Translations under genes and position numbers: made by a program | Part shown: piece by piece, positions 3,374 through 21,473 of the stretch | Position numbering within the stretch: the first letter of the stretch is position 1 | Layout of the letters: each line of letters starts with the position of its first letter | The notes under the pieces: generated by a model | The model's input: the letters and a program-made list of their open reading frames with translations, nothing else | Databases searched by the model: none | Told to the model about the DNA's origin: nothing | NCBI RefSeq assembly: GCF_011617245.1 | Contig: NZ_CP050152.1 | Coordinates: 992,001-1,056,000 of the forward strand | DNA from: Brevibacterium atlanticum | GTDB taxonomy: Bacteria; Actinomycetota; Actinomycetes; Actinomycetales; Brevibacteriaceae | DNA length: 64,000 nucleotides | Reading direction: 5' to 3'

Positions 3374-3416
3374 GCCCCGGAGTCTAGCGGTTCGCGCCCA
3401 AAATTCTCAATCAATG

Positions 3417-3431: not shown

Positions 3432-3524
3432 TGCGTGGTTCGTATCACTAATGTGGCGAGATGTGCACCACAGTCCGCGATCGACTGTGCCCGCATCACC
3501 ACCATCTCAAGGAGCATCACGTCG

Positions 3525-5141: not shown

Positions 5142-5149
5142 GGCAGACG

Positions 5150-6613
5150 ATGAGTGAGACCACGTTCCTAGGAACCGAGTGGCACGAGAAGATCTTCACC
5201 GGGACCTGGACCGACGGTGCGGGTCAGACCTACGATGTCGTCGAACCCGCGACAGGGGAGACGCTGGGCCGCCTCGGCGCCGCCAGCGCCGAGGACGTCA
5301 ACACCGCGGCCACCCGAGCCGCGGCCGCACAGAAGGAATGGGCTCGCACGACCCCGGCCGAACGCGCCGCGGTGCTCCGACGCGCCGGGGCCCTGTGGGC
5401 CGAACACGCCGAAGAGCTGTCGGGCTGGATCGTCCGCGAAGCCGGTTCCATCCCGGCCAAGGCCGCACTCGAGATCAGCTCCGCCGAGCAGATCTGCTAT
5501 GAGTCGTCCGCTCTGCCGAGCCACCCCAAGGGCCAGGTCCTGACCTCGAACGAACCGCGCTGGTCGTTCGCCCGCCGTGTGCCGGCCGGAGTCGTCTCCG
5601 TCATCGCCCCGTTCAACTTCCCGCTCATCCTCGGCATCCGCTCCGTCGCCCCGGCACTCGCCCTGGGCAACGCCGTGCTGCTCAAACCCGACCCGCGCAC
5701 CGCCGTGTGTGCGGGCGTGTCCATCGCCAAGGTCTTCGCCGAGGCGGGCCTGCCCGAGGGTCTCCTTCAGGTGCTGCCCGGCGGACTCGACGCCGGTGAA
5801 GCCGTCGTCGCCGCCCCCGAGGTCTCGGTCATCTCCTTCACCGGCTCGACCGCGGCAGGACGGAAGGTCGGCGAAGCCGCCGGTCGCCTCCTCAAACGCT
5901 GCCACCTCGAACTCGGGGGAAACAACGCGCTCGTCGTCCTGCCCGGCGCCGAGGTCGGTCCGGCCACCTCGGCGGGGGCCTTCGGTTCGTGGATGCACCA
6001 GGGCCAGATCTGCATGACCACCGGCCGCCACCTCGTCCACGAATCGATCGTCGACGACTACGTCGAACAGCTGGCCGAGCGCGCCCGGAACCTGCCGGTG
6101 GGCGATCCCGCCACCGAGGAGGTCGCGATCGGGCCGATCATCGACGACAAACAGCGCACCCACGTTCGCGACATCCTCGACAAGGCCACCGCCGACGGTG
6201 CCCGCCTCGTCGCCGGCGGACCCGGCGAAGGGGCCTTCGTCCCGCCGACGGTGCTCACGGATCTCAGCCCGTCGAACCCGGCGTGGACGCAGGAGATCTT
6301 CGGACCCGTCGCCCCTGTGGCGACGTTTGCCACCCTCGAAGAGGCCGCGGAGATGGTCAACGCCAGCGAATACGGTCTGTCATTGGGCATCCTCGGCGAT
6401 GTGGGCATGGCGATGGAGCTCGCCGACCTCGTCGACACGGGCAAGGTCCACATCAACGAACAGACCGTCTCCGATGAGGCCAACGTCCCCTTCGGCGGGA
6501 TGAAGGACTCCGGCAACGGCTCCCGCTTCGGCGGTGCCGAGGCCAATATCGAGGCCTTCACCGAAACCCAATGGGTGACGATGCGCTCATCCATCGCGCC
6601 CTACCCGTTCTGA
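5150..6613 (+). CDS. benzaldehyde dehydrogenase (NAD(P)+)
   Basis: A 487-residue aldehyde dehydrogenase, the same length as XylC-type benzaldehyde dehydrogenases. It shows the APFNFPLILGIRS coenzyme-entry segment, SFTGSTAAGRKVG, LELGGNN (general-base Glu 254), GQICMTT with nucleophile Cys 288, EIFGPVAPV and PFGGMKDSG. Placed eight bases after the decarboxylase stop, it would oxidise benzaldehyde to benzoate. ATG 5150 is chosen because an AGG-containing site precedes it and the alternative start at 5138 overlaps the upstream gene. Aminobenzaldehyde could be handled too, but that is speculation. Confidence 0.85.
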   Translation: MSETTFLGTEWHEKIFTGTWTDGAGQTYDVVEPATGETLGRLGAASAEDVNTAATRAAAAQKEWARTTPAERAAVLRRAGALWAEHAEELSGWIVREAGSIPAKAALEISSAEQICYESSALPSHPKGQVLTSNEPRWSFARRVPAGVVSVIAPFNFPLILGIRSVAPALALGNAVLLKPDPRTAVCAGVSIAKVFAEAGLPEGLLQVLPGGLDAGEAVVAAPEVSVISFTGSTAAGRKVGEAAGRLLKRCHLELGGNNALVVLPGAEVGPATSAGAFGSWMHQGQICMTTGRHLVHESIVDDYVEQLAERARNLPVGDPATEEVAIGPIIDDKQRTHVRDILDKATADGARLVAGGPGEGAFVPPTVLTDLSPSNPAWTQEIFGPVAPVATFATLEEAAEMVNASEYGLSLGILGDVGMAMELADLVDTGKVHINEQTVSDEANVPFGGMKDSGNGSRFGGAEANIEAFTETQWVTMRSSIAPYPF

Positions 6614-6627
6614 CCCAGGAGACACCG

Positions 6628-7905
6628 ATGTCCTCACCTGCTCCTTCTTCAGCCACCGCCGCTGCTGCTTCGGCCGGGCGCTGGCCTGCCGTCCTCTGTT
6701 GGCTCGCCGTCGCCCTCGAGGGCTTCGACCTCGTTGTCCTCGGCGCGGTCATCCCCGAACTGCTCGCCACCGGGGCGCTCGGCTTCACCCCGGAGGCGGC
6801 CACTGTCGTGGCCACGCTCAGCCTCGTGGGAGTCGGCCTCGGCGCTGTGGCCGTCGGGCCGGTCGTCGACCGGATCGGGCGGCGCTGGGCGATCATCGCC
6901 TGCGTCATCGGCTTCAGCGTCTTCACCCTCTTCGTCGCCTTCGCCCCGAACGTCGCGCTGTTCACGACGTTCCGCTTCATCGCCGGACTCTTCCTCGGCG
7001 CCGTGATGCCCAGCTGCCTGGCTTACATCGGCGAATACACGAAGGCCGGCAACACCGGCAAGGCGACGACACTGACGATGACCGGCTACCACGCCGGCGC
7101 CGTCGCGATCTCCCTGCTCGCCGTGGCGTACTCGCACAACTGGCACCTGCTCTTCCTCGCCGGCGGCATCGCGGGACTGCTCATGGTTCCACTGCTGTGG
7201 TGGAAGCTGCCTGAATCCCAGGCGTTCCTCGTCGCCCAACAGGCGAAACGGGACCCGGTGGCCGCCTCGGAGCTGGCCGAAGCGAACGACCCGACCGGCA
7301 CCGTGGATGCGAACGCGAAGTCGGGCATGGCCGGACTCTTCGCCGGCAAGCTGGCGCTCGTGACGATCGGCGTGTGGGCGGCGAGCTTCATGGGACTCCT
7401 CCTCGTCTACGGACTCAACACGTGGCTGCCGAAGATCATGGCCGACGCCGGCTACGAGGTCTCGGACTCCCTCGTCATGCTCTTCGTGCTGAACATCGGT
7501 GCCGTCGTCGGCCTCGTGCTGGCCGGCTGGCTGGCCGATAAGCACGGGACGAAGAAGATCGTGCTCATGTGGTTCGTCCTCGCCGCGATCTTCCTCGCCG
7601 CGCTGTCGATTCCGATGACCAGCCAGGTGCTGCTCAACATTGCCGTGTTCATCACCGGCGTCTTCGTCTTCTCCGCCCAGGTCCTCGTCTACGCCTTCGT
7701 CTCCGCGATCTACCCCGCGCAGGCACGCGGCACAGCGCTCGGCATGGCATCGGGCATCGGGCGCATCGGCGCGATCGTCGGACCCTTCATCACCGGTGCC
7801 CTGGTCACCGCGGGTATCGCTTACCCGTGGGGCTTCTACCTCTTCGCCGCCGTCGCGGTCCTCGGCTTCGCGTCCATGGCCATCGTGCCGCGGTCGGTGA
7901 AGTGA
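6628..7905 (+). CDS. MFS transporter, aromatic acid:H+ symporter (AAHS) type
   Basis: A 425-residue, 12-helix major facilitator. The first loop carries the AAHS pattern (EGFDLVVLGAVIPEL in helix 1), then GPVVDRIGRRWA between helices 2 and 3. A second-half copy reads GWLADKHGTKK, and LGMASGIGRIGAIVGP falls in helix 11. Relatives import benzoate, 4-hydroxybenzoate or related acids. It is the third gene of the benzoylformate operon, with AGGAGA at 6617-6622 ahead of the ATG, so uptake of mandelate, benzoylformate or benzoate is likely. It ends close to the convergent aryl-CoA monooxygenase gene. Confidence 0.85.
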   Translation: MSSPAPSSATAAAASAGRWPAVLCWLAVALEGFDLVVLGAVIPELLATGALGFTPEAATVVATLSLVGVGLGAVAVGPVVDRIGRRWAIIACVIGFSVFTLFVAFAPNVALFTTFRFIAGLFLGAVMPSCLAYIGEYTKAGNTGKATTLTMTGYHAGAVAISLLAVAYSHNWHLLFLAGGIAGLLMVPLLWWKLPESQAFLVAQQAKRDPVAASELAEANDPTGTVDANAKSGMAGLFAGKLALVTIGVWAASFMGLLLVYGLNTWLPKIMADAGYEVSDSLVMLFVLNIGAVVGLVLAGWLADKHGTKKIVLMWFVLAAIFLAALSIPMTSQVLLNIAVFITGVFVFSAQVLVYAFVSAIYPAQARGTALGMASGIGRIGAIVGPFITGALVTAGIAYPWGFYLFAAVAVLGFASMAIVPRSVK

Positions 7906-7950: not shown

Positions 7951-10335
7951 TCACACGGCGGCGTTCTCCCTCGTGGAGGGTTTCCACCGCAGGTGAGGGT
8001 CGTCGGTGAGTTCGTCCTCACGCAGCAGTGAGAGACGCGGTCGGACGGCGTCGGTGCGCGCAGCTGGCGGCTTGCGTCGTCCGGCCCGGAACTGGTCTAA
8101 CCACTCGGCACCCGAACCGCGATACTCCTGTTCGGCCGCTGCCTGAAGAGTCCAGTGAGGGTTGTACAGATGGGTACGACCCACCGCGATGAGATCTGCT
8201 CGCCCAGCAAGCAGGATCGAGTTCGCGTCATCAAAGGATGAAATCGCTCCGACTGCGATGACGGCGACGTTCGCCGGTCCGGCGACGTCCTGCCTGATCC
8301 GGTCTGCGAATGGCGTCTGATATGACCGTCCGTAAGCCGGCGACTCCTCAGGCGTAACCTGACCAGTTGAAACATCGATCCCATCGACACCGTGCTCGAC
8401 GAAGGCTTGTGAGATGGCGAGTGCGTCTTCAACCGTGTTCCCGCCCCGTACCCAGTCGGTGGCCGAGACTCGCACGGTGATCGCCTTTTCCGCTGGCCAG
8501 GCCTGCTTGACTGCGTCGAACACCTCGAGCGGGAATCGCAGCCTGTTCTCCATAGATCCCCCGTACTCGTCCGTCCGTCTGTTGGTGAGGGGAGAGAGGA
8601 AGGCAGAAAGCAGGTAGCCGTGAGCTGCATGGAGTTCGATGACGTCGAATCCAGCATCTGCGGCATTTCTCGCGGCCGCGACATAATCGGCGACGACAGC
8701 GTCCATGCCGGCACGATCGAGCTCTGTGGGAACCGCGTTGACAGAAGCGTAGGGCAGCGCCGAGGCGGACACAATGTCCCAATTTCCTGATTCCAGCGGC
8801 TGGTCGATTCCTTCCCACATCCGCTTGGTCGAGCCTTTGCGGCCAGCATGTCCGAGCTGGATTCCGATCTTCGATTGCGTCATCGTATGGACGAATTCAG
8901 TGATGCGCTTCCACCCGGCGACTTGTTCAGGCGAGTACAGGCCGACACAGGCAGGGGTGATCCGTGCCGATCGCGAGATCGCTGTCATCTCGGCCATGAC
9001 CAGGCCTGCTCCACCCATAGCCTTCGACCCCAGATGGGCGAGATGGAAGTCTGTGGGTACTCCATCTTCGCCGGCGGAGTACATATTCATCGGGGATACG
9101 ACGATCCGATTGGCCAACTCGACGCCACCGAGACGGTACTTCTGGAACATCGCGGGGGCCACCTCGGCGAGGGCCTGACTGGTCGCGAAATGCTCTTCGA
9201 CCCGCTTGGCGAACTCCGGATCACGCAACCGCAGGTTCTCCTGGGTGATGCGACGTGACCGGGTGAGCAGATTGAAAGCGAACTGCACAGGATCCTGGCC
9301 TGCGTACATGCCGATGCTCTCGAACCATTCGAGAGATGCCTGAGCCGCGCGCTGAGTCGATTCGACGACGGGACGTCGTTCGGTCTCGTAGGCCCGGAGC
9401 GCGGTATTGAGGTCGGAGTTCTCGAAGATGCACGCGGCGAGCGCAAGAGCGTCTTCCATAGCGAGTTTGGTGCCCGAACCGATCGAGAAATGTGCTGTAT
9501 GCGCGGCATCGCCGAGCAGCACGATGTTCTCATGCACCCAGTTCTGGTTGCGCACAGTGGTGAAGTTGATCCACTTGGAATTGTTCGTCAGCAGCTCATA
9601 GCCTTCGAGCTCTTCTGCGAAGATCTCTCTGATTCGGTTGACCGCGTAGTCGTCATTGACCCCGGGTCCGAACACTTCGTTCTCCGTCTTGTCGAAACCG
9701 GCACGACGCCACACGTCCTCGTGCATCTCGACGATGAACGTCGACCCCTGATCGGAGAACGGGTAACCGTGGACCTGCATGACGCCGTGTTCGGTCTCTT
9801 TGATGAAGAATTTGAATGCTTCGAAGACCTCACTCGTCCCCAGCCAGATGTATTTGTTCGCGCGGAGATCGAGAGAAGGTTTGAAACTGTCAGCGAAGGT
9901 GCGACGAATGAGCGAGTTGAGTCCGTCGGCGGCGACGACGAGGTCGTAGTCCGCGGCGAGTTCATTCACATCAGGTGCTCTGGTTGAGAACCTGACATCG
10001 ACGCCGAGCTCCCGTGTGCGCTGTTGGAGCATTTCGAGCAGGTCCTTGCGGTACATCGCCGCAAAACCCTGACCTCCGACGGTGAGCTGCTCGCCGCGAT
10101 AGTGGATGTCGATGTCAGCCCAGCGGGCGAAATGCCGCTCCATGTAGTCCGCGACGACCGGGTCGGCGTTGCCGATTCCTCCGAGAGTCTCGTCGGAGAA
10201 CACGACGCCGAATCCGAACGTGTCCGAAGCGGCATTCTGCTCCCAGACTGTGATCTCGACGTCCGAACGCAGCTGCTTGACGAGTGCGGAGAAATAGAGG
10301 CCTCCTGGCCCTCCTCCGACGACGGCGATCTTCAT
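7951..10335 (-). CDS. bifunctional aryl-CoA 5-monooxygenase / Old Yellow Enzyme reductase
   Basis: A 794-residue two-domain flavoprotein. Residues 1-390 form a class A flavin monooxygenase (GGGPGG at 8-13, a DLVVAADGLNS motif, VLLGDAAHTAHFSIGSGT). Residues from about 396 form an Old Yellow Enzyme barrel (SPMNMYSAGEDGVPTDFH, GIQLGHAGRK, FDVIELHAAHGYLLSAFLSPL). This layout is that of salicylyl-CoA 5-hydroxylase/oxidoreductase and of 2-aminobenzoyl-CoA monooxygenase/reductase. With the aryl-CoA ligase upstream and isatin genes nearby, anthraniloyl-CoA is the favoured substrate, giving a 5-hydroxylated or 5-oxo product. Salicylyl-CoA to gentisyl-CoA is the main alternative. It is the last gene of a five-gene minus-strand operon. 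Confidence 0.85.
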   Translation of the reverse strand: MKIAVVGGGPGGLYFSALVKQLRSDVEITVWEQNAASDTFGFGVVFSDETLGGIGNADPVVADYMERHFARWADIDIHYRGEQLTVGGQGFAAMYRKDLLEMLQQRTRELGVDVRFSTRAPDVNELAADYDLVVAADGLNSLIRRTFADSFKPSLDLRANKYIWLGTSEVFEAFKFFIKETEHGVMQVHGYPFSDQGSTFIVEMHEDVWRRAGFDKTENEVFGPGVNDDYAVNRIREIFAEELEGYELLTNNSKWINFTTVRNQNWVHENIVLLGDAAHTAHFSIGSGTKLAMEDALALAACIFENSDLNTALRAYETERRPVVESTQRAAQASLEWFESIGMYAGQDPVQFAFNLLTRSRRITQENLRLRDPEFAKRVEEHFATSQALAEVAPAMFQKYRLGGVELANRIVVSPMNMYSAGEDGVPTDFHLAHLGSKAMGGAGLVMAEMTAISRSARITPACVGLYSPEQVAGWKRITEFVHTMTQSKIGIQLGHAGRKGSTKRMWEGIDQPLESGNWDIVSASALPYASVNAVPTELDRAGMDAVVADYVAAARNAADAGFDVIELHAAHGYLLSAFLSPLTNRRTDEYGGSMENRLRFPLEVFDAVKQAWPAEKAITVRVSATDWVRGGNTVEDALAISQAFVEHGVDGIDVSTGQVTPEESPAYGRSYQTPFADRIRQDVAGPANVAVIAVGAISSFDDANSILLAGRADLIAVGRTHLYNPHWTLQAAAEQEYRGSGAEWLDQFRAGRRKPPAARTDAVRPRLSLLREDELTDDPHLRWKPSTRENAAV

Positions 10336-10430
10336 ACTGGTGTCCTTTCATTGCATGATCTGGTGACCGTTCGGCGCGGCTCAGGATAGGACTGTCGCGC
10401 TCTCACGGAATGTTTTTGGGAAAGGGGTAC

Positions 10431-12083
10431 TCAGACCCCTTCGGGTACCTTGCGCTCGTCTGATCTGCTGAGCTGTTCCCGGAGACGGAAATGCTGGAGC
10501 TTGCCGCTGGGATTCTTCGGAAGCTCATCGACGAAGTGGATCTCTCGCGGGTACTTGTACGGCGCGATCTGAGCTTTGACGAAATCCTGAATCTCCTTGA
10601 CCTTCTCCGGCCCGGACTCTGTGCCCGCCCGAAGCACGATGAACGCAGTGACCAGCGATCCTCGATCCTCGTCGGGCTTCGCGACGACAGCGCTCTCAAG
10701 GACCTCGTGATGCTCATTGATCGCCGTCTCCACCTCTGGAGCTCCGATGTTGTAGCCGGACGAAACGATCATGTTGTCGCTGCGCGCCTGGTAGACGAAA
10801 TAGCCGTCCCCATCGCGATAGAAGGTGTCGCCGGTGACGTTCCACCCATTGACGACGTACTTCGTCTGCCGTGGGTCATCGAGATATCGGCAGCCAAGGG
10901 GGCCGCGCACGGCGAGACGACCAGGCTCGTTGTCGCCGAGCTCGTTCCCGTCGGCGTCGAGGATGACCGCGCGAAATCCCGGAACCGGTTTGCCGACCGC
11001 GCCCGGCTTGATGTCATCGCCGGCAGCCGAGATGAAGACATGGAGCATCTCCGTCCCGCCGATTCCGTCGATGAGAGCGAGGCCGGTTGCTCGGAGAACT
11101 GCCTCTCTGGTCTGCACCGGCAGATGCTCGCCGGCGGAGATCGCCTTTCGAAGACCGCTGAGCAGGTCACCGCGTCCCTCTTTGATGATCACCCGATAGG
11201 CCGTCGGCGCCGTGTAGAGGATCGTCACCCCGGCATCGGCCGCATAGTTTGCAAGATCGAGCGGTGCGGCCTTCTCGACCATGAGTGACGCGGCCCCGAA
11301 ATAGAGAGGGAAGACGACGAGAGCGCCGAGCCCGAAGGTGAATGCCAGCGGTGCCGAACACGCACAGATGTCATCGGGTTCAACGCCGACAATGTGTCGT
11401 CCGAAGGTGTCGGCATTGATGAGGATGTCGCGATGGAAATGCATTGTCACCTTGGGCACACCCGTGGTCCCTGACGTGGGGCAGAGGAGGGCGACGTCGT
11501 CTGCCGCCGTTTCGACGTTGTCGAACGTCGTCTCCTTCGTTGCCGAAGTGATGGTGAGATCCTCGAGGGAATCTCCACCGCACGCGATGAGGTCGACCCC
11601 ATGATCCGCCGCAGGTGCGGTGATGTCTTTGAGGAAGCGGTGGTCGGTGATGGCGACCGTAGGCTGAGTCAAAGTGATGAGCTTATCGACCTCGGACTCC
11701 CGCAGGAGAGGCATTGTGGTCACGACGACGCCTCCGGCTTTGAGGGTTCCCAACCATGCTGCGACGAGCCAGGGATTGTTCGGTGCACGGAGCAGCACCC
11801 TGTTGCCTGGGACCACACCATGATCGTCGACAAGGACTCGAGCAATCTGATTTGACCGCGCGAGCAGCTGACCATAGGACCAGGTCTCACCTTCTGGTGT
11901 CGTCAGCGCCATTCGATCGGGGCCAAAGCGCTGCGTCGGAGTGTCGATGAGTGCAGTGGCTGCGTTGAGGCGATCCGGGTAGTGGACGTCGTCGATGGTG
12001 AATTCGAGAATGGGCCACTGGTCGTCCGGGGGCAGATGATCGCGCGCGAATGTATCGAGATGGCCTGTACGGGAGAGTTCCAT
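10431..12083 (-). CDS. aryl-CoA ligase (2-aminobenzoate/benzoate-CoA ligase family)
   Basis: A 550-residue ANL-superfamily adenylating enzyme that would activate an aromatic carboxylate with ATP and CoA. CPTSGTTGVPKVTMHFHRD is the P-loop, GIGGTEMLH the A5-type motif, WNVTGDTFYRDGDGYFVYQARSDNMI the hinge region, and PKNPSGKLQHF near the C-terminus holds the catalytic Lys. The family look is benzoate/2-aminobenzoate-CoA ligase. The start ATG 12083 is followed by MELSRTGHLDTFARDHLPP; longer upstream starts overlap the thioesterase. Sitting between a thioesterase and the aryl-CoA monooxygenase, it is the likely anthranilate-CoA ligase of the cluster. Confidence 0.82.
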   Translation of the reverse strand: MELSRTGHLDTFARDHLPPDDQWPILEFTIDDVHYPDRLNAATALIDTPTQRFGPDRMALTTPEGETWSYGQLLARSNQIARVLVDDHGVVPGNRVLLRAPNNPWLVAAWLGTLKAGGVVVTTMPLLRESEVDKLITLTQPTVAITDHRFLKDITAPAADHGVDLIACGGDSLEDLTITSATKETTFDNVETAADDVALLCPTSGTTGVPKVTMHFHRDILINADTFGRHIVGVEPDDICACSAPLAFTFGLGALVVFPLYFGAASLMVEKAAPLDLANYAADAGVTILYTAPTAYRVIIKEGRGDLLSGLRKAISAGEHLPVQTREAVLRATGLALIDGIGGTEMLHVFISAAGDDIKPGAVGKPVPGFRAVILDADGNELGDNEPGRLAVRGPLGCRYLDDPRQTKYVVNGWNVTGDTFYRDGDGYFVYQARSDNMIVSSGYNIGAPEVETAINEHHEVLESAVVAKPDEDRGSLVTAFIVLRAGTESGPEKVKEIQDFVKAQIAPYKYPREIHFVDELPKNPSGKLQHFRLREQLSRSDERKVPEGV

Positions 12084-12109
12084 GAGTCTGTGTCCTCGTG
12101 TTCGGAATG

Positions 12110-13036
12110 TCAGTGGGCGATCATGCCCTCTTGGGCTACGGTGGCGAGCAGCCGACCGCTGCGATCGAAGAATCGGCCTAGTGCGAGTCCGCGGGAAGAC
12201 TGCAGAGACTCTGCCTCTTGGGCATAGAGGATCCAGTCGTCGACGTTGGCAGTGCGGTGGAACCACATCGCATGGTCGAGGCTGGCGGTGACGAGTCCGT
12301 CCGATGACCAGCTGAGGCCCTGCGTGCGCAGCAACGGCTCGAGAATGGTGTAGTCGCATACATAGCTGAGCGCGATGCGGTGCAGATTCGCGGTTTCGGA
12401 ATCTGTCGACTGCACGGCAAGCGGAGTAAAGGATTTCAGCCAGATCGCTTGAGTGACGGTCAGCGTCTCTGCGCCGGCGGAGCCGTGTCCAGCGTTGTCA
12501 CCACTGAGGTAGACCGGACCGGGAATGTGCCGCATGTCGAAGCTGCGGCCGGTGGCCCAATACTCGGCTGCCGGGGTCGAGACTCCGGACAGGGCTGTTT
12601 CAGCGGAGGCCAGTGACTCCGGGTCGACGCGGAGTTCTTCCGTGCCGCCCCTCTGATAATCAGGGCCCTTCTGCGGCACCTGGAATGACCCGGTTGAGAG
12701 GAAGACGGTCTTTCCGCCCTGCACCCCGCGGACGTGACGAGTCGAATAGTTGCGTCCGTCACGGATTCGTTCGACGTCGTATCGGACGGGCTCGAACATC
12801 GTCACCGGTCGCATGAAGGTCGAATGCGTCGAATGGAGCACTCTGTCCTGACCTGCGGTGGCGATCATCGCAGCTGTGGCTTGGGCGACCATATCTCCGC
12901 CATAGGCTTTGGGCCACGGCGCGTACTGCGGTACGGCAGTGAAGGAGTCGACGTCGGATCCGCTTTCGACCGGGGTCAGTGAGATCGCTTCGACGAAAGT
13001 CGAGGACGTTCTCGGGGAGGTGATGTCAGTGCTCAT
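12110..13036 (-). CDS. acyl-CoA thioesterase, TesB-like double hotdog
   Basis: A 308-residue protein of the TesB (acyl-CoA thioesterase II) family. The first hotdog has PWPKAYGGDMVAQATAAM and HSTHSTFMRPV; the second has ASLDHAMWFHRTANVDDWILYAQEAESLQSSRGLALGRFFDRSG, a family hallmark. In this operon it could release the free acid from a hydroxylated aryl-CoA such as 5-hydroxyanthraniloyl-CoA or gentisyl-CoA. ATG 13036 has GAGAGAGG upstream. An alternative ATG at 13075 overlaps the cupin stop as ATGA and adds 13 residues. Confidence 0.78.
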   Translation of the reverse strand: MSTDITSPRTSSTFVEAISLTPVESGSDVDSFTAVPQYAPWPKAYGGDMVAQATAAMIATAGQDRVLHSTHSTFMRPVTMFEPVRYDVERIRDGRNYSTRHVRGVQGGKTVFLSTGSFQVPQKGPDYQRGGTEELRVDPESLASAETALSGVSTPAAEYWATGRSFDMRHIPGPVYLSGDNAGHGSAGAETLTVTQAIWLKSFTPLAVQSTDSETANLHRIALSYVCDYTILEPLLRTQGLSWSSDGLVTASLDHAMWFHRTANVDDWILYAQEAESLQSSRGLALGRFFDRSGRLLATVAQEGMIAH

Positions 13037-13071
13037 GGGGCCTCTCTCAGTCGTCGTGATATCGATGGAGC

Positions 13072-13539
13072 TCATGCGCGGCGATAGCCTTCGAGCTGCT
13101 CATCGGGAACGTCTTTGAGATTGACGACGATGTTCTCCGGAGTTCTGGTCGTGATCCAGATGAGCTGCTCGGTCGTCGACATGTTCGCTTCGACGTGCGG
13201 CATATAGGGCGGAACGAAGACCCAGTCGCCCTCGACCATGTCGAGGTATTCCTTATAGTCCTCGCCGAAGTAGATTCGGCCCTTTCCCTTGAGCACTCGA
13301 CCGCCGGTCTCCGCCTCGCCGTGGTGATGCGGAAGCGAACGATAGCCGGGCTCGTTGGAGACCTCTCCGTACCAGATCTTCGTCGCCGGAGTGTGCTGAA
13401 TCGAGACACCTGAGACGCGCACACAGTCGCCGGACTGAGTGGTATTGCGATCTTCCTCGCCCTTGCGGGTGACGACGGGAACGACCTGCCCGCGTTCGTT
13501 GGCATAGATCGAATTGTCGATGGTGTTGTGTTCGGACAT
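13072..13539 (-). CDS. single-domain cupin, candidate ring-cleavage dioxygenase
   Basis: A 155-residue cupin. Motif 1 reads GYRSLPHHHGEAETGGRVLKGKG and motif 2 GDWVFVPPYMPHVEAN, giving the usual His-His-Glu-His metal set. It is too short for a canonical gentisate 1,2-dioxygenase, which has two cupin folds. Its place between an FAH hydrolase and a thioesterase in an aryl-CoA degradation operon suggests a ring-cleaving or accessory dioxygenase. A likely substrate is 5-hydroxyanthranilate or gentisate, but no substrate is shown by sequence. A simple binding or isomerase cupin cannot be excluded. Confidence 0.6.
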   Translation of the reverse strand: MSEHNTIDNSIYANERGQVVPVVTRKGEEDRNTTQSGDCVRVSGVSIQHTPATKIWYGEVSNEPGYRSLPHHHGEAETGGRVLKGKGRIYFGEDYKEYLDMVEGDWVFVPPYMPHVEANMSTTEQLIWITTRTPENIVVNLKDVPDEQLEGYRRA

Positions 13540-13574
13540 TGTGAGAACCTCTTTCTTCTGCGTTGGGAGGGTGT

Positions 13575-14405
13575 TCAGACGGTGATCGGGTTGAGCAGCT
13601 CGCCCAGCCCCGAGGCGGCGGTGCGAATGACGTCTCCCGGATTGGCGTAGCGCGGAGGCTGCATTCCCTGGCCGACGCCACCGGGGGTTCCGGTGAGGAT
13701 GACGTCTCCCGGGGCGAGTGTGGTGAAGCCGCTGATGTACGAGAGCAGCTGTGCCGGCGGAAACACCAGCGATGAGGTGTCTCCGCACTGAACTCGTTCG
13801 TCGTTGATCCACCCTTCGACAGTGAAATGGGGGTCGGAATCGAATTCGTCGGCAGTGGTCAACCACGGCCCCAGTGGGGTGCTGGCTGTGAAGTTCTTGC
13901 CTTGGAACCATTGGAGAGTGCGCTTCTGCCAGTCACGCATGGACACGTCGTTGGCGACGCAGTACCCCGCTATCGCCGAGGAGGCTTCATCCTCTGACGC
14001 GTGTGTGAGCTGAGCGCCGACGATGACGGCGAGTTCGGCTTCCCAATCGACTGAGTTGCTGCCTCCGGTAGCGATCGCGTCATGTGCTCCGGTGAGGGTG
14101 TCCGTGTATTTGGCGAACAGGGTGGGGTGACGGGGCAGCGCGCGACCCATCTCGCGGATGTGATCGGAGTAGTTGAGACCGCAGCAGATGATCTTGCGCG
14201 GAGAGGTTAAGACGGACGCGAACTCGGCCTGCGAACTGGCGACGAAGTCACCTGACGGCGCGCTGACTGCGGCGATGGCCTTCGAGCGCCAGTCGCCCGC
14301 GGTGAGCAGTTCAGCGATGTCTGAGTAGGGGAGCAGCGCCCAGCCGCTGTTCGTCTCTGCTGCTGCGGCAGTGCCGGACTGTGTGCGAAGGGTGGCCAGC
14401 TTCAT
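13575..14405 (-). CDS. fumarylacetoacetate hydrolase-family enzyme
   Basis: A 276-residue FAH-fold protein: CCGLNYSDHIREMGR, then the metal-ligand segment SVDWEAELAVIVG, NDVSMRDWQ, GKNFTASTPLGPWL, FPPAQLLSYISGFTTLAPGDVILTGTPGGVG. Relatives hydrolyse fumarylpyruvate, maleylpyruvate or acylpyruvates, or decarboxylate. As first gene of the lower operon it would cut the ring-cleavage product to pyruvate plus a C4 dicarboxylate. GAGGTG precedes the ATG at 14405. The palindrome TGACGAGCGTCA lies 36 bases upstream of the start codon. Confidence 0.82.
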   Translation of the reverse strand: MKLATLRTQSGTAAAAETNSGWALLPYSDIAELLTAGDWRSKAIAAVSAPSGDFVASSQAEFASVLTSPRKIICCGLNYSDHIREMGRALPRHPTLFAKYTDTLTGAHDAIATGGSNSVDWEAELAVIVGAQLTHASEDEASSAIAGYCVANDVSMRDWQKRTLQWFQGKNFTASTPLGPWLTTADEFDSDPHFTVEGWINDERVQCGDTSSLVFPPAQLLSYISGFTTLAPGDVILTGTPGGVGQGMQPPRYANPGDVIRTAASGLGELLNPITV

Positions 14406-14440
14406 CACTTCACCTCTTTCTCTAACATGTTGCTTATTTG

Positions 14441-14452
14441 TGACGAGCGTCA
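14441..14452. promoter_or_regulatory. palindromic operator TGACG-AG-CGTCA (copy 1)
   Basis: TGACGAGCGTCA is a perfect 5-bp inverted repeat around two central bases, 36 bases upstream of the FAH-family gene. A second copy lies at 14522-14533 and near copies at 23129-23140 and 21474-21485, all in divergent promoter regions of this cluster. It is a probable operator; whether PaaX, AraC or another protein binds it is not visible. Confidence 0.55.
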
Positions 14453-14521
14453 TTGAAGTGAAACTTAGCATGAAGATCGAGTATGCAACAGAGGTTCAGG
14501 AAAATTTTTATATAGACAATC

Positions 14522-14533
14522 TGACGGGCGTCA
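14522..14533. promoter_or_regulatory. palindromic operator TGACG-GG-CGTCA (copy 2)
   Basis: TGACGGGCGTCA, followed by CA, lies in the same divergent intergenic region 81 bases from copy 1. It immediately follows an AT-rich TTTTTATATAGACAATC stretch that may hold the -10 region for the RidA gene. Overlap with the promoter core would suit repression. Confidence 0.55.
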
Positions 14534-14580
14534 CATAGTGTGAATTTTGCAAGCAATGCCCACGGTCTTCGGAGGACACC

Positions 14581-15009
14581 ACGAGTGACGCACAGAAATT
14601 CGCAACCGACCACACGATCGTCAACCCTGATTCGTTGGCGAAACCGTCGGGCTATGCCCATGGCGTACGGGCAGGCAGAAGGGTCTACCTCGGAGGTCAG
14701 ACCGCCTTGGACAAAGACATGAATATCGTGCCCGGGGGCATCGTCGCGCAGTTCGAGCAGGCATTCTCGAATGTGCTGACAACGTTGCGTGAGGCGGGGG
14801 GAGAGCCACGCGATCTCGTCAGTGTGACGATCTATCTCACCGATGTTGACGACTACTTGGCCAACGGGCGCGAAATCGGTCGTCGATGGAGGGCGATGGC
14901 AGGAACCGACTACCCGGCCATGGCGGGAATCGGAGTCTCGAGGCTGTGGCAGGCTGATGCGCTCATCGAGATCCAGGGAACCGCAGAAATCCCAGCGTAT
15001 CGAGCGTGA
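14581..15009 (+). CDS. RidA-family deaminase with apparent ACG start codon
   Basis: A RidA/YjgF-family protein, 142 residues if translation begins at ACG 14581. That codon has a strong GGAGG (14571-14575) five bases upstream. The segment TIVNPDSLAKPSGYAHGVRAGRRVYLGGQT is the standard RidA first strand and loop. The first in-frame conventional start, TTG 14635, falls inside this segment and would delete the first strand. Between the upstream in-frame stop and 14635 there is no ATG, GTG or TTG. RidA proteins hydrolyse enamines/imines, and the family includes 2-aminomuconate deaminases. Here it could deaminate an amino-substituted ring-cleavage product. Divergent from the FAH gene and convergent with PaaX. 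Confidence 0.75.
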   Translation, partial: TSDAQKFATDHTIVNPDSLAKPSGYAHGVRAGRRVYLGGQTALDKDMNIVPGGIVAQFEQAFSNVLTTLREAGGEPRDLVSVTIYLTDVDDYLANGREIGRRWRAMAGTDYPAMAGIGVSRLWQADALIEIQGTAEIPAYRA

Positions 15010-15028: not shown

Positions 15029-15862
15029 CTATTCGGAGAGCACCTGTTCGACGTAGCGTTCTGCGCTGGCGGAGAGCCGGCGATGTGCTGTGTAGAACAG
15101 AGTGCGAACCCGAGGCCCGTTCCATCCGGAGGGGACGAACTCAGGTGGGAGCGGAGGAATCGAGTATGGCAACTCGCGCCACATCGTGAGCATGGGCACG
15201 TACATCCGGAACGCGTCCCGTTCGGTGGCTGCGGCTTCGTCGAGCCACTTGTCCCAGGTCTTCTCGTCGGGCACGTAGGCGGCGAGGAACGGGTCGAACC
15301 GTGAGTTGAGTTCTTCGAGGTCCCACCACTGTCCGATTCTCGTCGCCAGCTGCTCTTCGTCGGAGTACGCGCCGACGAAGAAGTCGACATAGTCGTCGAG
15401 GCCTCGGCGGCGAAGCACGACTTCCGCCTCGTGGAGGTTCGCCGCCGGGGCAATCCAGACTCCTTGCCCTGCGATGCCGAAGCCCAGCCGGGACAGAGAA
15501 GAGCGGATCTGGTGGCGCAGGGATCGTTGGGATTCCGGCACGGTGAATGTGGCGAGTGCCCATTGCCCGCTGCTGTCGGGGCGGGTGTCGGCGAAAATGC
15601 GCACGTCGCCTTCGTCGATCGTTTCTGCCATCGATGGATCGATGCTGTACACCGCTTGGCGGTCGAACTTCTCTGCGACGAGGATGCCCTTGCTCTTGAG
15701 GCGGGAGACAGCGGATCGCACGCCCGGTGCGTCATAGCCGAGATCCCCCATCATCTGCACGAGCTTCGCGATTCTGATGCGATCTCTGGGTGGCCTGGCA
15801 TACAGGCCGAAGAGCGTGATGATGAGGTCTTGGTGGCGCAGCGCCGGCTGAGGCAGGGGCAT
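15029..15862 (-). CDS. PaaX-family transcriptional repressor
   Basis: A 277-residue PaaX-like regulator. The N-terminal winged helix (LIITLFGLYARP to AVSRLKSKGILVAEK, about 13-65) is followed by the PaaX central domain with GQWALATFTVPESQRSLRHQIRSSLSRLGFG and a C-terminal domain ending HRRLSASAERYVEQVL. PaaX proteins generally sense aryl-CoA thioesters, which matches the aryl-CoA steps encoded alongside. It lies 60 bases downstream of the FAD dehydrogenase and is probably the last gene of the upper-pathway operon. It is a candidate reader of the TGACG-N2-CGTCA palindromes. Confidence 0.8.
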   Translation of the reverse strand: MPLPQPALRHQDLIITLFGLYARPPRDRIRIAKLVQMMGDLGYDAPGVRSAVSRLKSKGILVAEKFDRQAVYSIDPSMAETIDEGDVRIFADTRPDSSGQWALATFTVPESQRSLRHQIRSSLSRLGFGIAGQGVWIAPAANLHEAEVVLRRRGLDDYVDFFVGAYSDEEQLATRIGQWWDLEELNSRFDPFLAAYVPDEKTWDKWLDEAAATERDAFRMYVPMLTMWRELPYSIPPLPPEFVPSGWNGPRVRTLFYTAHRRLSASAERYVEQVLSE

Positions 15863-15922: not shown

Positions 15923-17569
15923 CTATCGCGACGTGAATCGGGAACGCATCCGGGCCAGACGTCCGGGCGAAAGGATCTGCTGGGCAGCGAGGAACCCAGA
16001 CCCTCCTCCGAGTCCCGGTCCCGGATGGGTCGCCGCACCGATGTGCCAGACTCCCCGCACTGCCGTTGCATGGGCTGCGCCGGACAGAAAGGGCCGGAAC
16101 ATGAGATTCTGATCGAGTTCCGCCGAACCACCGTAAGGATCGCCGTTGACCGCATTGGGATTGTGCGCTTCCAAGTCAGTCGGGCTGATCAGATCGTCAG
16201 CGAGAATCGTCTGTCGGAACCCGGGCGCATATTCTTCGATCCGGTCGATGATGCGATCGACGAATGCCCGGCGAAATGACGATTCTGACCATTCGAGTGG
16301 CCCCTCGATCTCGCCCGCGGCGTCTCCTTCCGGTCGATACGGGACCTCCTGCAGCTGTACCCACAACGTGGCATGCCCAGAGGGTGCGCGGCTGGGATCG
16401 AGGACGCACTGCTGGCCGACGACCACAGTGGGTCTGCGCGGGACCAAGCCCGCTGCCGCCTCGGCGATGGAGATGGCGGTACCCGACGATCCTTCGCTGA
16501 GATGCACCAGTGGGATGTCGGCAAGAGACGAATCGCTCCATGGGACTGGGCTCGACAACGCGAAATGAATCTGTGCGGCCCCTTTCCCGCTGCGGAATCT
16601 TCGTGAATCAGTTGTCTGTTGGGAGACCCCGTCGGCATCAGCGAGAAGGTTCTGATAGAGAGCTTGCGGAGATGTGCTTGCGATGACTATTCCTGTGGTG
16701 ATGCGGCCGCCGTCCGTACGGACCGCACGGACGGAGCCGTGCGACGTTTCAATGCCTGTAGCAGTCGTGTCGGTGAGAATCTCGACATCACGGCCGCGAA
16801 GGAGCGAGGTGAATGCGGCGATGAAGTTCGCTGCGCCCCCGCGGACTACCGGCATGCCGAATCCGTGCAGAGATGCAGCGAATACCGGCACCATGATCCC
16901 GCCTGTCGCACTGTCGGGGCCGAGACCGGAGTGCAGCAGCCATGGTGTCCACAGCGCATCGACGTCGGTGCCGACGAAAGTCGATTCGAAGAGCGCACGT
17001 GCACTCGATGCACCGGAACGGACCAAGCCGAGGCTTCCCTTCGGCCCGAGAGTGCGCAGAGCCGTGAAGCCCGTTCGGGCTAAGGCCGACCACTGCGATA
17101 CTTCAGTTCCCAGCATTCCGAAGACAGTTGGGCTCTGTCGATCGAATTCGTCGAGCATGTCGAGGTAGGCACGTCCGTCCTCGCTATTGGTCAGACTCTC
17201 CGCTGTCTCTGCACGCGATCTGTGGGCGATGACGCAGCGCTGTTCGCCTCGGACGGTACCGACAGTGGCGGCCATGGCCCTGTCTGTGTTCGCATATTCA
17301 AGGCCGTGTTCATGCAGATCATCGCCGAATTCGGCATAACCGGGTCCCGACACGAACAACGGGTGCCATGAGCTGAATGTGTCGTGCACGAATCCAGGCA
17401 GAGTTCGCTCGCCCGAGGCGATGAAACCGCCGATCGTCGAACGGCTTTCGAGCAGTACGACCTTTCGCCCCGCGCCCGAGAGCTTGGCAGCGGCGACGAG
17501 CGAATTGATCCCGCTGCCGATGATGACGACATCGGCGTCAGAATTCCGGGACGAAAGAGGGGTGCTCAT
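15923..17569 (-). CDS. FAD-dependent NAD(P)/phytoene dehydrogenase-like oxidoreductase
   Basis: A 548-residue flavoprotein of the phytoene desaturase/amine oxidase superfamily. The N-terminus has ADVVIIGSGINSLVAAAKLSGAGRKVVLLES for FAD binding, followed by TIGGFIASGE and GFVHDTFSSWHPLF. The C-terminus reads GVWHIGAATHPGPGLGGGSGFLAAQQIL, the second FAD signature. Its ATG overlaps the stop of the monooxygenase-reductase fusion (TGATG), so the two are translationally coupled. It may oxidise an intermediate such as a hydroxyoxindole to isatin; this role comes from context only and the substrate is unknown. Confidence 0.75.
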   Translation of the reverse strand: MSTPLSSRNSDADVVIIGSGINSLVAAAKLSGAGRKVVLLESRSTIGGFIASGERTLPGFVHDTFSSWHPLFVSGPGYAEFGDDLHEHGLEYANTDRAMAATVGTVRGEQRCVIAHRSRAETAESLTNSEDGRAYLDMLDEFDRQSPTVFGMLGTEVSQWSALARTGFTALRTLGPKGSLGLVRSGASSARALFESTFVGTDVDALWTPWLLHSGLGPDSATGGIMVPVFAASLHGFGMPVVRGGAANFIAAFTSLLRGRDVEILTDTTATGIETSHGSVRAVRTDGGRITTGIVIASTSPQALYQNLLADADGVSQQTTDSRRFRSGKGAAQIHFALSSPVPWSDSSLADIPLVHLSEGSSGTAISIAEAAAGLVPRRPTVVVGQQCVLDPSRAPSGHATLWVQLQEVPYRPEGDAAGEIEGPLEWSESSFRRAFVDRIIDRIEEYAPGFRQTILADDLISPTDLEAHNPNAVNGDPYGGSAELDQNLMFRPFLSGAAHATAVRGVWHIGAATHPGPGLGGGSGFLAAQQILSPGRLARMRSRFTSR

Positions 17570-19296
17570 CACGACACCGCCGGATGATCGGCAGTCTCTC
17601 GGTACGCTCCGGAGTGGAAGACGAGCGGTTCTGCGCGGTCATGCGCGTACTGCTCTACCTCACCGATGTAGATGACGTGGTCGCCGGCATCATGGCGAGC
17701 AACGGTCCGGCATTGGAAGGACGCCACGGTTCCCGCGAGCACCGGCAGTCCTGCCGCACCCTCGATGATCTCCACACCGGCGAACTTGTCAGGAGCCGGG
17801 GTGGCGAACTGCCTGGAAAGAGCGTGCTGGTCACTGGCCAGGACGTTGATCGCGAAATGGGTACTCGACTCGAAATCCGCCAAGCTGGGCACGTGTTTGC
17901 CAGGGCACCAGAGGACGAGCGGAGGATCCATCGAGACCGACGTGAAAGAGTTTGCGGTCATTCCGACCTTCCGGCCGTCGGCTGTGCGGGTCGTGATCAC
18001 TGTGACGCCGGTAGCGAACTGTCCGAGCGCTGTGCGGAAGTCGCGCAGATCGAATTCGGCGGATTCGGCGCGAGCGCTCGCTTCGATGAAAGCGTGTGCC
18101 TCAGACACGTCGGACCACCAGGGGAATAGTGTTCTCGGATCGTCGAAGCCTGCGACGAGCGACGCGGCCAGCGACGGATGCGTCGCGGCGGCCGAGAACA
18201 GTTCGAGCTGGTGATTCCGCAATCCGCCGAGCAGAGAGTTCGTCCACGTGGTCGACCACTTGCCCCAACTTCTCCAATAGCCTTCGAACGTCTGCTGCTT
18301 CCACTCGTCATCGAACATTGCGCCGGACCGGATTCGTCTGATGATGGCGTCCGTGCAGTGCGCTGCAGCGAGCGCTGCATTGTTCGAGCCCTGGCCGGTG
18401 ATCGGGTCGTTGAGGATCACCGCATCGCCGATGCCCATGACGGTGGCACCGCTGGGAAGAGTTCCGACAGGATGCTTGACCGTTGGGGTGATCCGTCCGC
18501 GCAGCGTGGCCCCGCGATCGCTGAGCTCGCATTCCCCAAGACGAGCGAACTCGTCGGGGAAGTGCTGTCTGAGCACATCGCGCGTCCGCTGCAGATGTTC
18601 GTCGGGGTCGGACACGTCATCCCAGACGTCCAACTCCGAACCGGGGACTGCTTCGAAAACGAGCATCTGACATTCCTTGCCGTGCGTCAGTCCCGGGAAA
18701 GTGAAGAATTCACCGGACTCTGGCTTGTGGTGGAAGCGAATGTGGTTGGCTTCGTCATCCGCCGGCAAGGGCCGGTCCAGATAGGTCGCTGCGACGACCC
18801 TCTGTGGGCGGTCGTAGGGAGATCTCGCCCTGTCGACGGGGAAGATCTGTGAGAGCTCGGCTTTGCCGGTGGCGACGATGACGAGATCGTAGCGGCTGGT
18901 GATCTGTTCGAGAAGCCTCACACCCACCTTCTCGATACGGAAGTCGCCACCGCGCTGAGTGAATTGCGTGATCCAATCGGAGACCTTGAGCCGCTGGTCG
19001 ATCGACTGCGCAGGATGGTCGAATTCAGCAGCGAACCCGGTCCCAGCCCCGGTTTGCTCGAAGCTCATCCCCGTGATCTTCACTCCGGAGAGCTGCTGAC
19101 AATCGAGGCTGAGGTCCTTCTGCGCGGTCAACGCCGAAGCGAACATGCACTGCGTCGAAGTGATCTCCCCTTCGGCGACCTCTGCTGCGGATTGGTCAGA
19201 GTAGAGGGTGACTTTGATATCGGAGTTCTGCAGACCGAGCGCAAGCTGTGCCCCGGCTTCTCCGGCTCCGATGATGGCAATGTGCGGGCTGTTCAT
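17569..19296 (-). CDS. styrene/indole monooxygenase fused to flavin reductase (StyA2B-like)
   Basis: A 575-residue fusion. Residues 1 to about 410 form a StyA-type FAD monooxygenase: IAIIGAGEAGAQLALGL, QCMFA, HPAQSIDQRLK, GDAVILNDPITGQGSNNAA. From about 415 a flavin reductase of the HpaC/StyB type follows: FRTALGQFATGVTVITTR, GMTANSFTSVSMDPPLVLWC, FAINVLA. The same architecture is known from StyA2B of Rhodococcus opacus. It would supply reduced FAD for itself and for the adjacent stand-alone monooxygenase, whose stop it overlaps by ATGA. Such enzymes epoxidise styrene and indole; isatin genes nearby favour indole. Confidence 0.85.
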   Translation of the reverse strand: MNSPHIAIIGAGEAGAQLALGLQNSDIKVTLYSDQSAAEVAEGEITSTQCMFASALTAQKDLSLDCQQLSGVKITGMSFEQTGAGTGFAAEFDHPAQSIDQRLKVSDWITQFTQRGGDFRIEKVGVRLLEQITSRYDLVIVATGKAELSQIFPVDRARSPYDRPQRVVAATYLDRPLPADDEANHIRFHHKPESGEFFTFPGLTHGKECQMLVFEAVPGSELDVWDDVSDPDEHLQRTRDVLRQHFPDEFARLGECELSDRGATLRGRITPTVKHPVGTLPSGATVMGIGDAVILNDPITGQGSNNAALAAAHCTDAIIRRIRSGAMFDDEWKQQTFEGYWRSWGKWSTTWTNSLLGGLRNHQLELFSAAATHPSLAASLVAGFDDPRTLFPWWSDVSEAHAFIEASARAESAEFDLRDFRTALGQFATGVTVITTRTADGRKVGMTANSFTSVSMDPPLVLWCPGKHVPSLADFESSTHFAINVLASDQHALSRQFATPAPDKFAGVEIIEGAAGLPVLAGTVASFQCRTVARHDAGDHVIYIGEVEQYAHDRAEPLVFHSGAYRETADHPAVS

Positions 19297-20573
19297 GCGC
19301 GTGCTCCCATCGTCGATGCGGAATTGATGGGGGCTTCGGGTATCGCCGCGTCGAAAGCCGCGAGGTAGTCGAGTCCTTGTTCGGGGTCGAGGAACCACGA
19401 GCCGAAGTCGGCCGGATCGTCGAAGCCGTTGGCAAATCGATGAGCGATCTGCGGATGATCGGCTGCTCCGCGAAGCAAGGCGAAAGCGTGATCAGCGGGC
19501 GGAAGGAGGAGTGCGTTCGTCCAGTCGACTACAGGCTTTGCAACCGACCAGTAGCGTTCGAAGGTCGAGTGCATGAACTGCTCATCGAATGCGGCGTCAC
19601 CGTGGGCGATGATGGATTGCAGATAGGACTGTGCGCAACGAGAAGCGTTGTTCGATCCTTGTCCGGTGATGGGGTCGTTGAGGACCACGACATCAGCGGC
19701 GCCGAGGATCTTCGCTCCGCTGGGCAGGGTCGCGACCGGTCGGCGAATTGTGGGAGGGAAGCGGCCCTGTAGGGTGCCGAGCGAGTCGGTCAGCTCGACC
19801 CGGCCCGCCCGCTCCGCTTCCCATGGCAAGAAGGTTCGCAGAACAGCCAGGGAGGCATCGAGGTGTTCCTCGGGCGTCAGGCCCTTGAACCGGTCCATCG
19901 GGCCTCCGGGGGTCCCTTCGAAGACCATAATGTGGCAGTCCCCTGACAGGGTCGTGGCTGGGAAGACGAAGTATTCGCCGACTCCGGGGATGAGGTTGAA
20001 GCTCACGGCTTCGTACCCCTCTCTCGGTTCGAGTCCGTGCACGTACGTCAGAGCGAGAGCTCGTTGCGGAGCACTGAATGTGCTTCGTGAGTCGTCGCGT
20101 TCGAACAAGCCTGCAATCTCACCTTTCCCTGCGGCGACGATGACGAGGTCAGTCTCACGGGCATACGCCTCGAGTTCATCGATGCCGGCGTCGACGTATT
20201 CGATGGAGCCGTCTCGGCGAGTGAAGAGGTCCATGAGCGCGGGAAACTTCACTCGCTGGTCGACAGACTGAGCTGGAGAAGAGAGACGTGCAGTCCATGA
20301 GAACAGTTTCTCTCCTCTTCGGTCCGGGTCGGGCACGGTGAATCCGATGCCCTCGACAGGCGGGGCGTCCGGCCACAGGTCGGCTCCGACCTGTGCCTCA
20401 TACGACAGCGGCGTGGCGAACATGCATTGGCTGGAAGCTACGCGGGACGAGGCGATGTCTTCGGGCGTGCGGTTGGAGACCATACGGACTTCATAGCCGG
20501 CCTGCTGAAGGCCTAGGCCCAGCTGCAAGCCGTTCTGTCCGGCTCCGACGATGGTGATGGTGCGTTGTGACAT
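19293..20573 (-). CDS. styrene/indole monooxygenase oxygenase component (StyA1-like)
   Basis: A 426-residue StyA-family two-component flavin monooxygenase lacking its own reductase. It has ITIVGAGQNGLQLGLGLQQAGYEV at the N-terminus, SSQCMFATPLSYE, SSPAQSVDQRVKF, and ADVVVLNDPITGQGSNNASRCA. The fused paralogue immediately downstream, overlapping by four bases, provides the reductase domain, as in StyA1/StyA2B pairs. The likely reaction is epoxidation of the indole 2,3-bond, which rearranges towards indoxyl or oxindoles. It follows an SDR gene by 53 bases in one operon. Styrene remains an alternative substrate, but no styrene oxide isomerase is present. Confidence 0.83.
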   Translation of the reverse strand: MSQRTITIVGAGQNGLQLGLGLQQAGYEVRMVSNRTPEDIASSRVASSQCMFATPLSYEAQVGADLWPDAPPVEGIGFTVPDPDRRGEKLFSWTARLSSPAQSVDQRVKFPALMDLFTRRDGSIEYVDAGIDELEAYARETDLVIVAAGKGEIAGLFERDDSRSTFSAPQRALALTYVHGLEPREGYEAVSFNLIPGVGEYFVFPATTLSGDCHIMVFEGTPGGPMDRFKGLTPEEHLDASLAVLRTFLPWEAERAGRVELTDSLGTLQGRFPPTIRRPVATLPSGAKILGAADVVVLNDPITGQGSNNASRCAQSYLQSIIAHGDAAFDEQFMHSTFERYWSVAKPVVDWTNALLLPPADHAFALLRGAADHPQIAHRFANGFDDPADFGSWFLDPEQGLDYLAAFDAAIPEAPINSASTMGARA

Positions 20574-21409: not shown

Positions 21410-21473
21410 GATCCTTCTTTCCTCCGAGGTTCGATTGGGTCGGTCCGAATCGGTCGATTGCCGAAACGGAGTA

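Follow-up and report, generated by a model that had tools for sequence, protein, structure and literature searches.

A cupin-containing variant of the coenzyme A-dependent anthranilate pathway in Brevibacterium atlanticum, with a possibly new ring-opening step

Relation to described anthranilate and salicylate pathways

Anthranilate is derived from tryptophan, indole and quinolones, and its fate after activation with coenzyme A (CoA) is an acknowledged gap. One pathway tool omits tryptophan degradation via the anthraniloyl-CoA monooxygenase/reductase for lack of knowledge (PMC9007349), and the enzymes of the reported gentisate-type anthranilate routes are unknown (PMC6221969). In the CoA-dependent 2-aminobenzoyl-CoA pathway of Azoarcus evansii, the fused monooxygenase/reductase yields the enamine 2-amino-5-oxocyclohex-1-ene-carboxyl-CoA and leaks 5-hydroxyanthraniloyl-CoA only if NADH is short, as far as the Langkau work is cited in PMC3534580. 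Here, we describe a gene cluster of Brevibacterium atlanticum that shares the CoA ligase and fused monooxygenase/reductase logic of that pathway, whereas the hydratase and dehydrogenase with which the Azoarcus route continues by beta-oxidation are replaced by a TesB-type thioesterase, a small cupin and an FAH-family hydrolase. The cluster lies in a stretch of 64,000 nucleotides (hereafter the window), positions 992001-1056000 of the complete 4.16-Mb genome (GCF_011617245.1, NZ_CP050152.1). We put about even weight on the reading that its enzymes activate anthranilate with CoA, dearomatise it and open the ring by a module other than the usual one, which would make the cluster a variant of the known pathway with a possibly new ring-opening step.

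Five genes of the cluster run on the minus strand from 14405 to 7951. They encode the FAH-family hydrolase (13575-14405; PF01557, 213 bits), a monocupin of 155 amino acids (13072-13539; PF07883), the TesB-type acyl-CoA thioesterase (12110-13075; PF02551/PF13622), an AMP-forming ligase of the benzoate-CoA ligase family (10431-12083; TIGR02262, 323 bits) and a flavoenzyme of 794 amino acids of the 2-aminobenzoyl-CoA monooxygenase/reductase type (7951-10335). The latter consists of an FAD monooxygenase (residues 1-390) and an Old Yellow Enzyme domain (residues 396-737). The TesB gene starts at 13075, where an ATGA overlaps the cupin stop codon, or alternatively at an internal ATG at 13036. Divergent from these five, the plus strand carries a RidA-family gene (14581-15009; PF01042, 74 bits), and a conserved neighbour, a PaaX-family repressor gene (15029-15862, minus strand), likely encodes the cluster regulator. 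The ligase, monooxygenase fusion, TesB-like thioesterase, cupin, FAH hydrolase and divergent RidA are all present where a first-pass annotation, made from the sequence alone, had placed them, and the cluster is conserved. As plasmids and chromosomes of Arthrobacter, Rhodococcus, Tsukamurella and others show the identical gene order again, this gene set is far from a chance assembly.

Plasmid pAL1 of Arthrobacter sp. Rue61a carries a syntenic cluster that resembles that of the window in its genes, their order, the divergent RidA and the PaaX regulator. The monooxygenase, ligase and cupin are 71%, 65% and 77% identical, respectively, the ligase counterpart being the pAL1 AMP-binding protein. When expressed, this protein (ARUE_113p00220) had anthranilate-CoA ligase activity (PMC3534580). 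Anthraniloyl-CoA was detected in anthranilate-grown Rue61a cells, and hydroxyanthraniloyl-CoA (C7H7NO3-CoA) and C7H8O4-CoA were found solely in such cells, the authors assigning the latter as a possible cyclohexanedione-carboxyl-CoA (PMC3534580). Salicylate, gentisate and 5-hydroxyanthranilate did not support growth of the strain (PMC3534580), a failure for which an uptake problem could be another cause. That study assigns the pAL1 cluster to the 2-aminobenzoyl-CoA route and leaves the cupin unmentioned (PMC3534580); beyond Rue61a, we found no literature on the cupin-type cluster, with subscription journals outside the scope of the search. Neighbours of other cluster copies include kynureninase with tryptophan dioxygenase, alkylquinolone degradation (aqd) genes, the quinaldine plasmid, and indole monooxygenase with isatin hydrolase, all of which make anthranilate or its precursors. 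Whereas quinaldine feeds the pAL1 cluster, the window cluster is apparently fed by indole. As the syntenic Rue61a ligase is an anthranilate-CoA ligase, the ligase of the window almost certainly makes anthranilate-CoA too, its substrate being anthranilate and not salicylate.

The salicylyl-CoA-to-gentisate (Sdg) pathway of Streptomyces and Rhodococcus combines an aryl-CoA ligase with a 5-hydroxylase, both related in sequence to proteins of the window. The monooxygenase fusion matches NF006101 with 1170 bits (cut-off 1078), and its database name is 'bifunctional salicylyl-CoA 5-hydroxylase/oxidoreductase'. Salicylate breakdown via salicylyl-CoA and gentisate, which would follow this name, is barely credible. 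The window cluster differs from the Sdg pathway in its anthranilate substrate, in the presence of RidA, which requires an amino substrate, and in a cupin that at the family level is unrelated to gentisate dioxygenase. Because the syntenic ligase uses anthranilate and the neighbouring genes supply anthranilate or its precursors, the database name is misleading here, and the salicylate route was rejected; Rue61a also fails to grow on salicylate (PMC3534580). The first-pass annotation had likewise regarded salicylate as unlikely, on the ground that it would not need RidA; its conclusion holds, although on the grounds of synteny and neighbours rather than the one it gave.

Two lower modules on one monooxygenase/reductase core

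We compared gene content in the neighbourhoods of 66 monooxygenase/reductase genes, an uneven sample in which the majority of cupin loci were found via the cupin. Cupin-type loci accounted for 25 of the 66. FAH was nearly always present in them and RidA always (25/25), and enoyl-CoA hydratase or acyl-CoA dehydrogenase occurred in none, nor in the window cluster. Hydratase and/or dehydrogenase without the cupin were found in 34 loci; RidA also accompanies these Azoarcus-type relatives (31/34), and the three loci that lack it end at contig ends. The two modules never occurred together in one cluster (0/66). Two genus mates (L084, L085) contributed two further cupin clusters, both with RidA and without beta-oxidation genes, so that RidA is present in 27 of 27 cupin clusters. 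In an even sample of 396 Actinomycetota, the three cupin-bearing genomes hold the three best-scoring monooxygenases of 45. As the B. atlanticum genome has just four RidA-domain places in 4.16 Mb, a RidA neighbour by chance is improbable. The TesB-type thioesterase was restricted to actinobacterial cupin-type clusters in this gene-content comparison. A cupin in a hydratase-type cluster of Ruegeria (L055) aligned poorly with the cupin studied here and was not counted as the same protein. Arthrobacter sp. ERGS1:01 carries two copies of the cluster on two plasmids (L034, L060), of which the second has no intact FAH and broken TesB and PaaX genes.

At least three changes of module are needed to explain the monooxygenase tree, made with FastTree, and well-supported branches force each of them. 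In the clearest case, Rhizobium leguminosarum (L062), the monooxygenase and RidA are 83% and 62% identical to those of an Azospirillum locus with the hydratase module (L058). The FAH, hotdog thioesterase and SDR of the same Rhizobium locus are 77%, 80% and 64% identical to those of Celeribacter (L014), but the monooxygenases of these two are only 54% identical. Judged by these identities, the Rhizobium locus is a case of a cassette exchanged on a retained core. As the modules swap on one core, both must accept the same, or nearly the same, intermediate.

The RidA tree follows the monooxygenase and not the cupin. Cupin-type RidAs nest in two places among those of the hydratase type (23 rows, 16+7, support 100/100; 18 rows, 9+9, support 86/90). 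As RidA accompanies the monooxygenase/reductase core rather than the cupin, its substrate is very probably the core product, the dearomatised enamine 2-amino-5-oxocyclohex-1-ene-carboxyl-CoA, and the amino group would be lost before the ring is opened. The expected product, 2,5-dioxocyclohexane-carboxyl-CoA, fits the C7H8O4-CoA of anthranilate-grown Rue61a. The window RidA has the PF01042 fold and the catalytic residues R128 and E137 of a Rid imine/enamine deaminase. Its gene has no ATG, GTG or TTG at the expected start; position 14581 reads ACG behind GGAGGA, whereas ATG stands there in L084 and L085, the two genus mates that carry the cluster. The ACG could reflect an atypical start codon, damage to the start or an error in sequencing. 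The first-pass annotation had RidA deaminate the product of cupin cleavage, in the manner of the RidA-family 2-aminomuconate deaminases that do exist (PMC4433059, PMC6449761). We abandoned this placement, as RidA is just as much a part of clusters without the cupin and its tree tracks the monooxygenase.

The candidate ring-opening module

The following order of reactions is proposed for the window cluster. The ligase would form 2-aminobenzoyl-CoA, as was shown for the syntenic Rue61a gene. The fused monooxygenase/reductase would hydroxylate C5 and reduce the ring to 2-amino-5-oxocyclohex-1-ene-carboxyl-CoA, which was shown for the Azoarcus enzyme and is predicted here by homology and an intact reductase site. 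RidA would hydrolyse this enamine to 2,5-dioxocyclohexane-carboxyl-CoA and ammonia, after which TesB would free the cyclic beta-keto acid. In the least certain step, the cupin would use O2 to split the C1-C2 bond, in a manner like that of Dke1 or gentisate dioxygenase, yielding 2,4-dioxoheptanedioate. This acylpyruvate would be cut by the FAH hydrolase, going by its family and catalytic dyad, into succinate and pyruvate. The last three steps would stand in for the hydratase/dehydrogenase branch of the Azoarcus-type pathway.

That TesB, cupin and FAH together form a ring-opening module is fairly probable. In the FAH hydrolase, H82, E85, E122, E124, D153 and K170, which include an FAHD1-like His/Glu dyad (H82, E85) and the carboxylate metal ligands, are invariant in 23 of 23 cupin-type FAHs. 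Its named relatives act on acylpyruvates (diketo-deoxyrhamnonate hydrolase, FAHD1, and fumarylpyruvate and maleylpyruvate hydrolases). In the cupin, H71, H72, H73, E77 and H115 are invariant among relatives, with H71/H73, E77 and H115 making up a 3-His/1-Glu metal site, and R88, E117 and R132 are also conserved. It matched no NCBIfam model and none of the gentisate, salicylate or homogentisate dioxygenase families, and its sequence matches in the PDB were weak and to other cupins. Foldseek placed oxalate decarboxylase, Mn hydroxynitrile lyase, quercetinase, and gentisate and salicylate dioxygenases at similar levels. These are only generic cupins and the AlphaFold model is moderately confident (pLDDT 73.6), so the structure was not used to assign a function.

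At 153 amino acids, Dke1 is close in size to the window cupin. No sequence match between the two was seen, and Dke1 has a 3-His site in place of 3-His/1-Glu. Dke1 cleaves beta-diketones forming cis-beta-keto-enolates (PMC4019311), and the substrate proposed for the window cupin is also a cis-beta-keto enolate. The exact reaction that we predict, in which O2 is used to cleave the cyclic beta-keto acid between C1 and C2, is put forward tentatively. Close relatives of the cupin also occur in loci without the monooxygenase or RidA (L010, L013, L016, L061). In Microvirga (L010) and Hoeflea (L016), cupins of 72-80% identity have FAH, a number of SDRs, a TRAP transporter and an IclR regulator as neighbours, and a nearby aromatic oxygenase was not found; the gene order at another Microvirga locus (L013) is in agreement. 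At the Pacificitalea locus (L061), an Old Yellow Enzyme precedes the cupin. These loci probably break down an alicyclic acid. In alphaproteobacteria, the SDR found with cupin and FAH matches trans-4-hydroxycyclohexanecarboxylate dehydrogenase best, although below the cut-off. Circumstantially, these settings and affinities favour an alicyclic substrate for the cupin. The B. atlanticum genome has a second, ~53% identical cupin (G000:C1:814389-814754; L037 ~8390-8755) beside acyl-CoA dehydrogenase, carboxyltransferase and SDR genes, and a genus mate (G403, L088) shows a similar setting. This suggests that the cupin family serves another pathway too.

Three other accounts of ring opening were weighed. 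In the one given by the first-pass annotation, free 5-hydroxyanthranilate is released, the cupin opens its ring and RidA then removes the amino group from the opened product. The composition of the cluster, the hydroxyanthraniloyl-CoA mass in Rue61a (PMC3534580) and the RidA-family 2-aminomuconate deaminases speak for it, yet we consider it quite improbable. The Old Yellow Enzyme residues Y419, Q493, H496, H569, H572, Y574 and R622, which correspond to positions of YqjM, are invariant in all 25 cupin-type clusters. This argues against free 5-hydroxyanthranilate, as an aromatic route through it would not need those residues, and so do the exchange of modules on one core, the RidA genes of cupin-free clusters and the failure of Rue61a to grow on 5-hydroxyanthranilate or gentisate (PMC3534580). 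Moreover, gentisate-type C1-C2 cleavage of 5-hydroxyanthranilate would be expected to give an amide, and not an enamine that a Rid protein could hydrolyse. What survives of that annotation is an anthranilate-CoA route whose lower module lies outside beta-oxidation, with TesB, cupin and an FAH hydrolase of the acylpyruvate type acting together.

Both remaining accounts start from deamination. The deaminated intermediate could be re-aromatised to gentisate or gentisyl-CoA, cleaved by the cupin to maleylpyruvate and hydrolysed by FAH. Gentisate and 5-hydroxyanthranilate have been reported in anthranilate- and indole-degrading Nocardia and Alcaligenes, according to two reviews (PMC4539516, PMC6221969), and the alphaproteobacterial versions carry an extra SDR. 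However, no candidate for an aromatising dehydrogenase is encoded in the actinobacterial clusters, gentisate does not support growth of Rue61a (PMC3534580) and the cupin is by family no gentisate dioxygenase, which makes this account improbable. Family matching found no gentisate 1,2-dioxygenase in the window cluster, and the cupin, a 155-residue monocupin with a 3-His/1-Glu site, falls outside the model for that enzyme. The only gentisate-family protein of the genome is a bicupin of 376 amino acids located elsewhere (L063, G000:C1 ~4085.3-4086.4 kb), 3.1 Mb off in record coordinates and below the gentisate 1,2-dioxygenase cut-off (277 vs 442 bits); it has an AMP ligase and an FAH of its own (45% identical to that of the window). 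The cupin was therefore rejected as a gentisate dioxygenase. Alternatively, FAH or the cupin could hydrolytically open the dearomatised intermediate deaminated by RidA, as the cyclic beta-keto acid or the thioester, to 4-oxoheptanedioate, with the cupin acting as a lyase, isomerase or decarboxylase. The FAH family includes hydrolases of 1,3-diketones, and profile and fold both bring the cupin, with its 3-His/1-Glu site, closest to oxalate decarboxylase and Mn hydroxynitrile lyase. Hydrolytic opening nevertheless appears unlikely: the gentisate pathway likewise has a cupin gene next to an FAH acylpyruvase gene, as at L063, and this pairing suggests an acylpyruvate intermediate.

Several observations weigh against the pathway of oxidative cleavage proposed here. 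Among characterised enzymes, the cupin has only distant relatives, its best profile match being oxalate decarboxylase (E=3.6e-8), and its metal site is 3-His/1-Glu, whereas Dke1 and gentisate dioxygenase have 3-His. Neither module was found in 7 of the 66 monooxygenase loci, some of which are truncated and at least three apparently not. In principle, RidA might come in at a later point of both branches, and the C7H8O4-CoA of Rue61a could come from chromosomal paralogues of that strain. The archetypal Rid Arg, present in the window protein, occurs in only 10 of 25 cupin-type and 10 of 31 hydratase/dehydrogenase-type relatives; this pattern may, as weak evidence, be compatible with a thioester substrate instead of a carboxylate.

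Supply of anthranilate and wider significance

Upstream enzymes for the use of indole are probably encoded in the same window. On the minus strand lie genes for StyA1 (19293-20573), an indole/styrene monooxygenase, StyA2B (17569-19296), the same type of enzyme fused to its flavin reductase, and two probable members of the indole pathway: an SDR dehydrogenase (20627-21427), of which 54-57% identical genes adjoin StyA in L020 and L032, and a CrtI-like FAD oxidoreductase (15923-17572), whose relatives lie beside isatin hydrolase genes in other loci. On the plus strand, an isatin hydrolase gene of the cyclase family (23242-24069; PF04199; among solved structures, isatin hydrolase 5nmp ranks first, E=1.2e-66) is overlapped by that of a thiamine diphosphate (ThDP)-dependent decarboxylase (24066-25787), a proposed isatinate (2-aminobenzoylformate) decarboxylase. 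L084, L085 and L035 have the same pair next to the cluster. Together, StyA1/StyA2B, the SDR, isatin hydrolase and the ThDP decarboxylase probably make anthranilate from indole via isatin, isatinate and 2-aminobenzaldehyde, and the hydrolase/decarboxylase pair could supply the unknown step from isatinate to anthranilate via 2-aminobenzaldehyde. In several alphaproteobacterial cupin clusters (L032, 3036-6741; L011, L012, L014, L015, L017, L018, L021 and L024), IorAB, a 2-oxoacid:ferredoxin oxidoreductase, is encoded beside isatin hydrolase, and these clusters contain no CoA ligase, distant matches aside. This suggests that IorAB may oxidise isatinate (2-aminophenylglyoxylate) straight to anthraniloyl-CoA.

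An aromatic acid/H+ symporter gene of the MFS (6571-7905, plus strand) is convergent with the operon, its membership being uncertain, and a hotdog thioesterase gene (22572-23150, minus strand) is a recurrent neighbour of these clusters. The transporter gene is adjoined by high-G+C genes for a benzoylformate decarboxylase (612 bits, cut-off 493) and an aldehyde dehydrogenase (3372-6613), which may act on isatinate or its aldehyde or have a role in mandelate breakdown. The operon itself has a G+C content of 0.605, compared with 0.656 and 0.667 in its flanks, and within the genus only three genomes out of 57 carry the cupin cluster, a fourth match being a 55% paralogue. By composition and distribution, the operon thus looks acquired.

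Two exchangeable modules on a retained core place RidA in the pathway and name candidates for each missing step. The ring of dearomatised anthranilate may possibly be opened in a second, interchangeable way, namely by thioester hydrolysis, by a small cupin that uses O2 to split the C1-C2 bond of a non-aromatic cyclic beta-keto acid, 'dihydrogentisate', and by acylpyruvate hydrolysis to succinate and pyruvate. If true, this would extend ring-opening cupin dioxygenases to a non-aromatic, alicyclic substrate, across actinobacteria and alphaproteobacteria.

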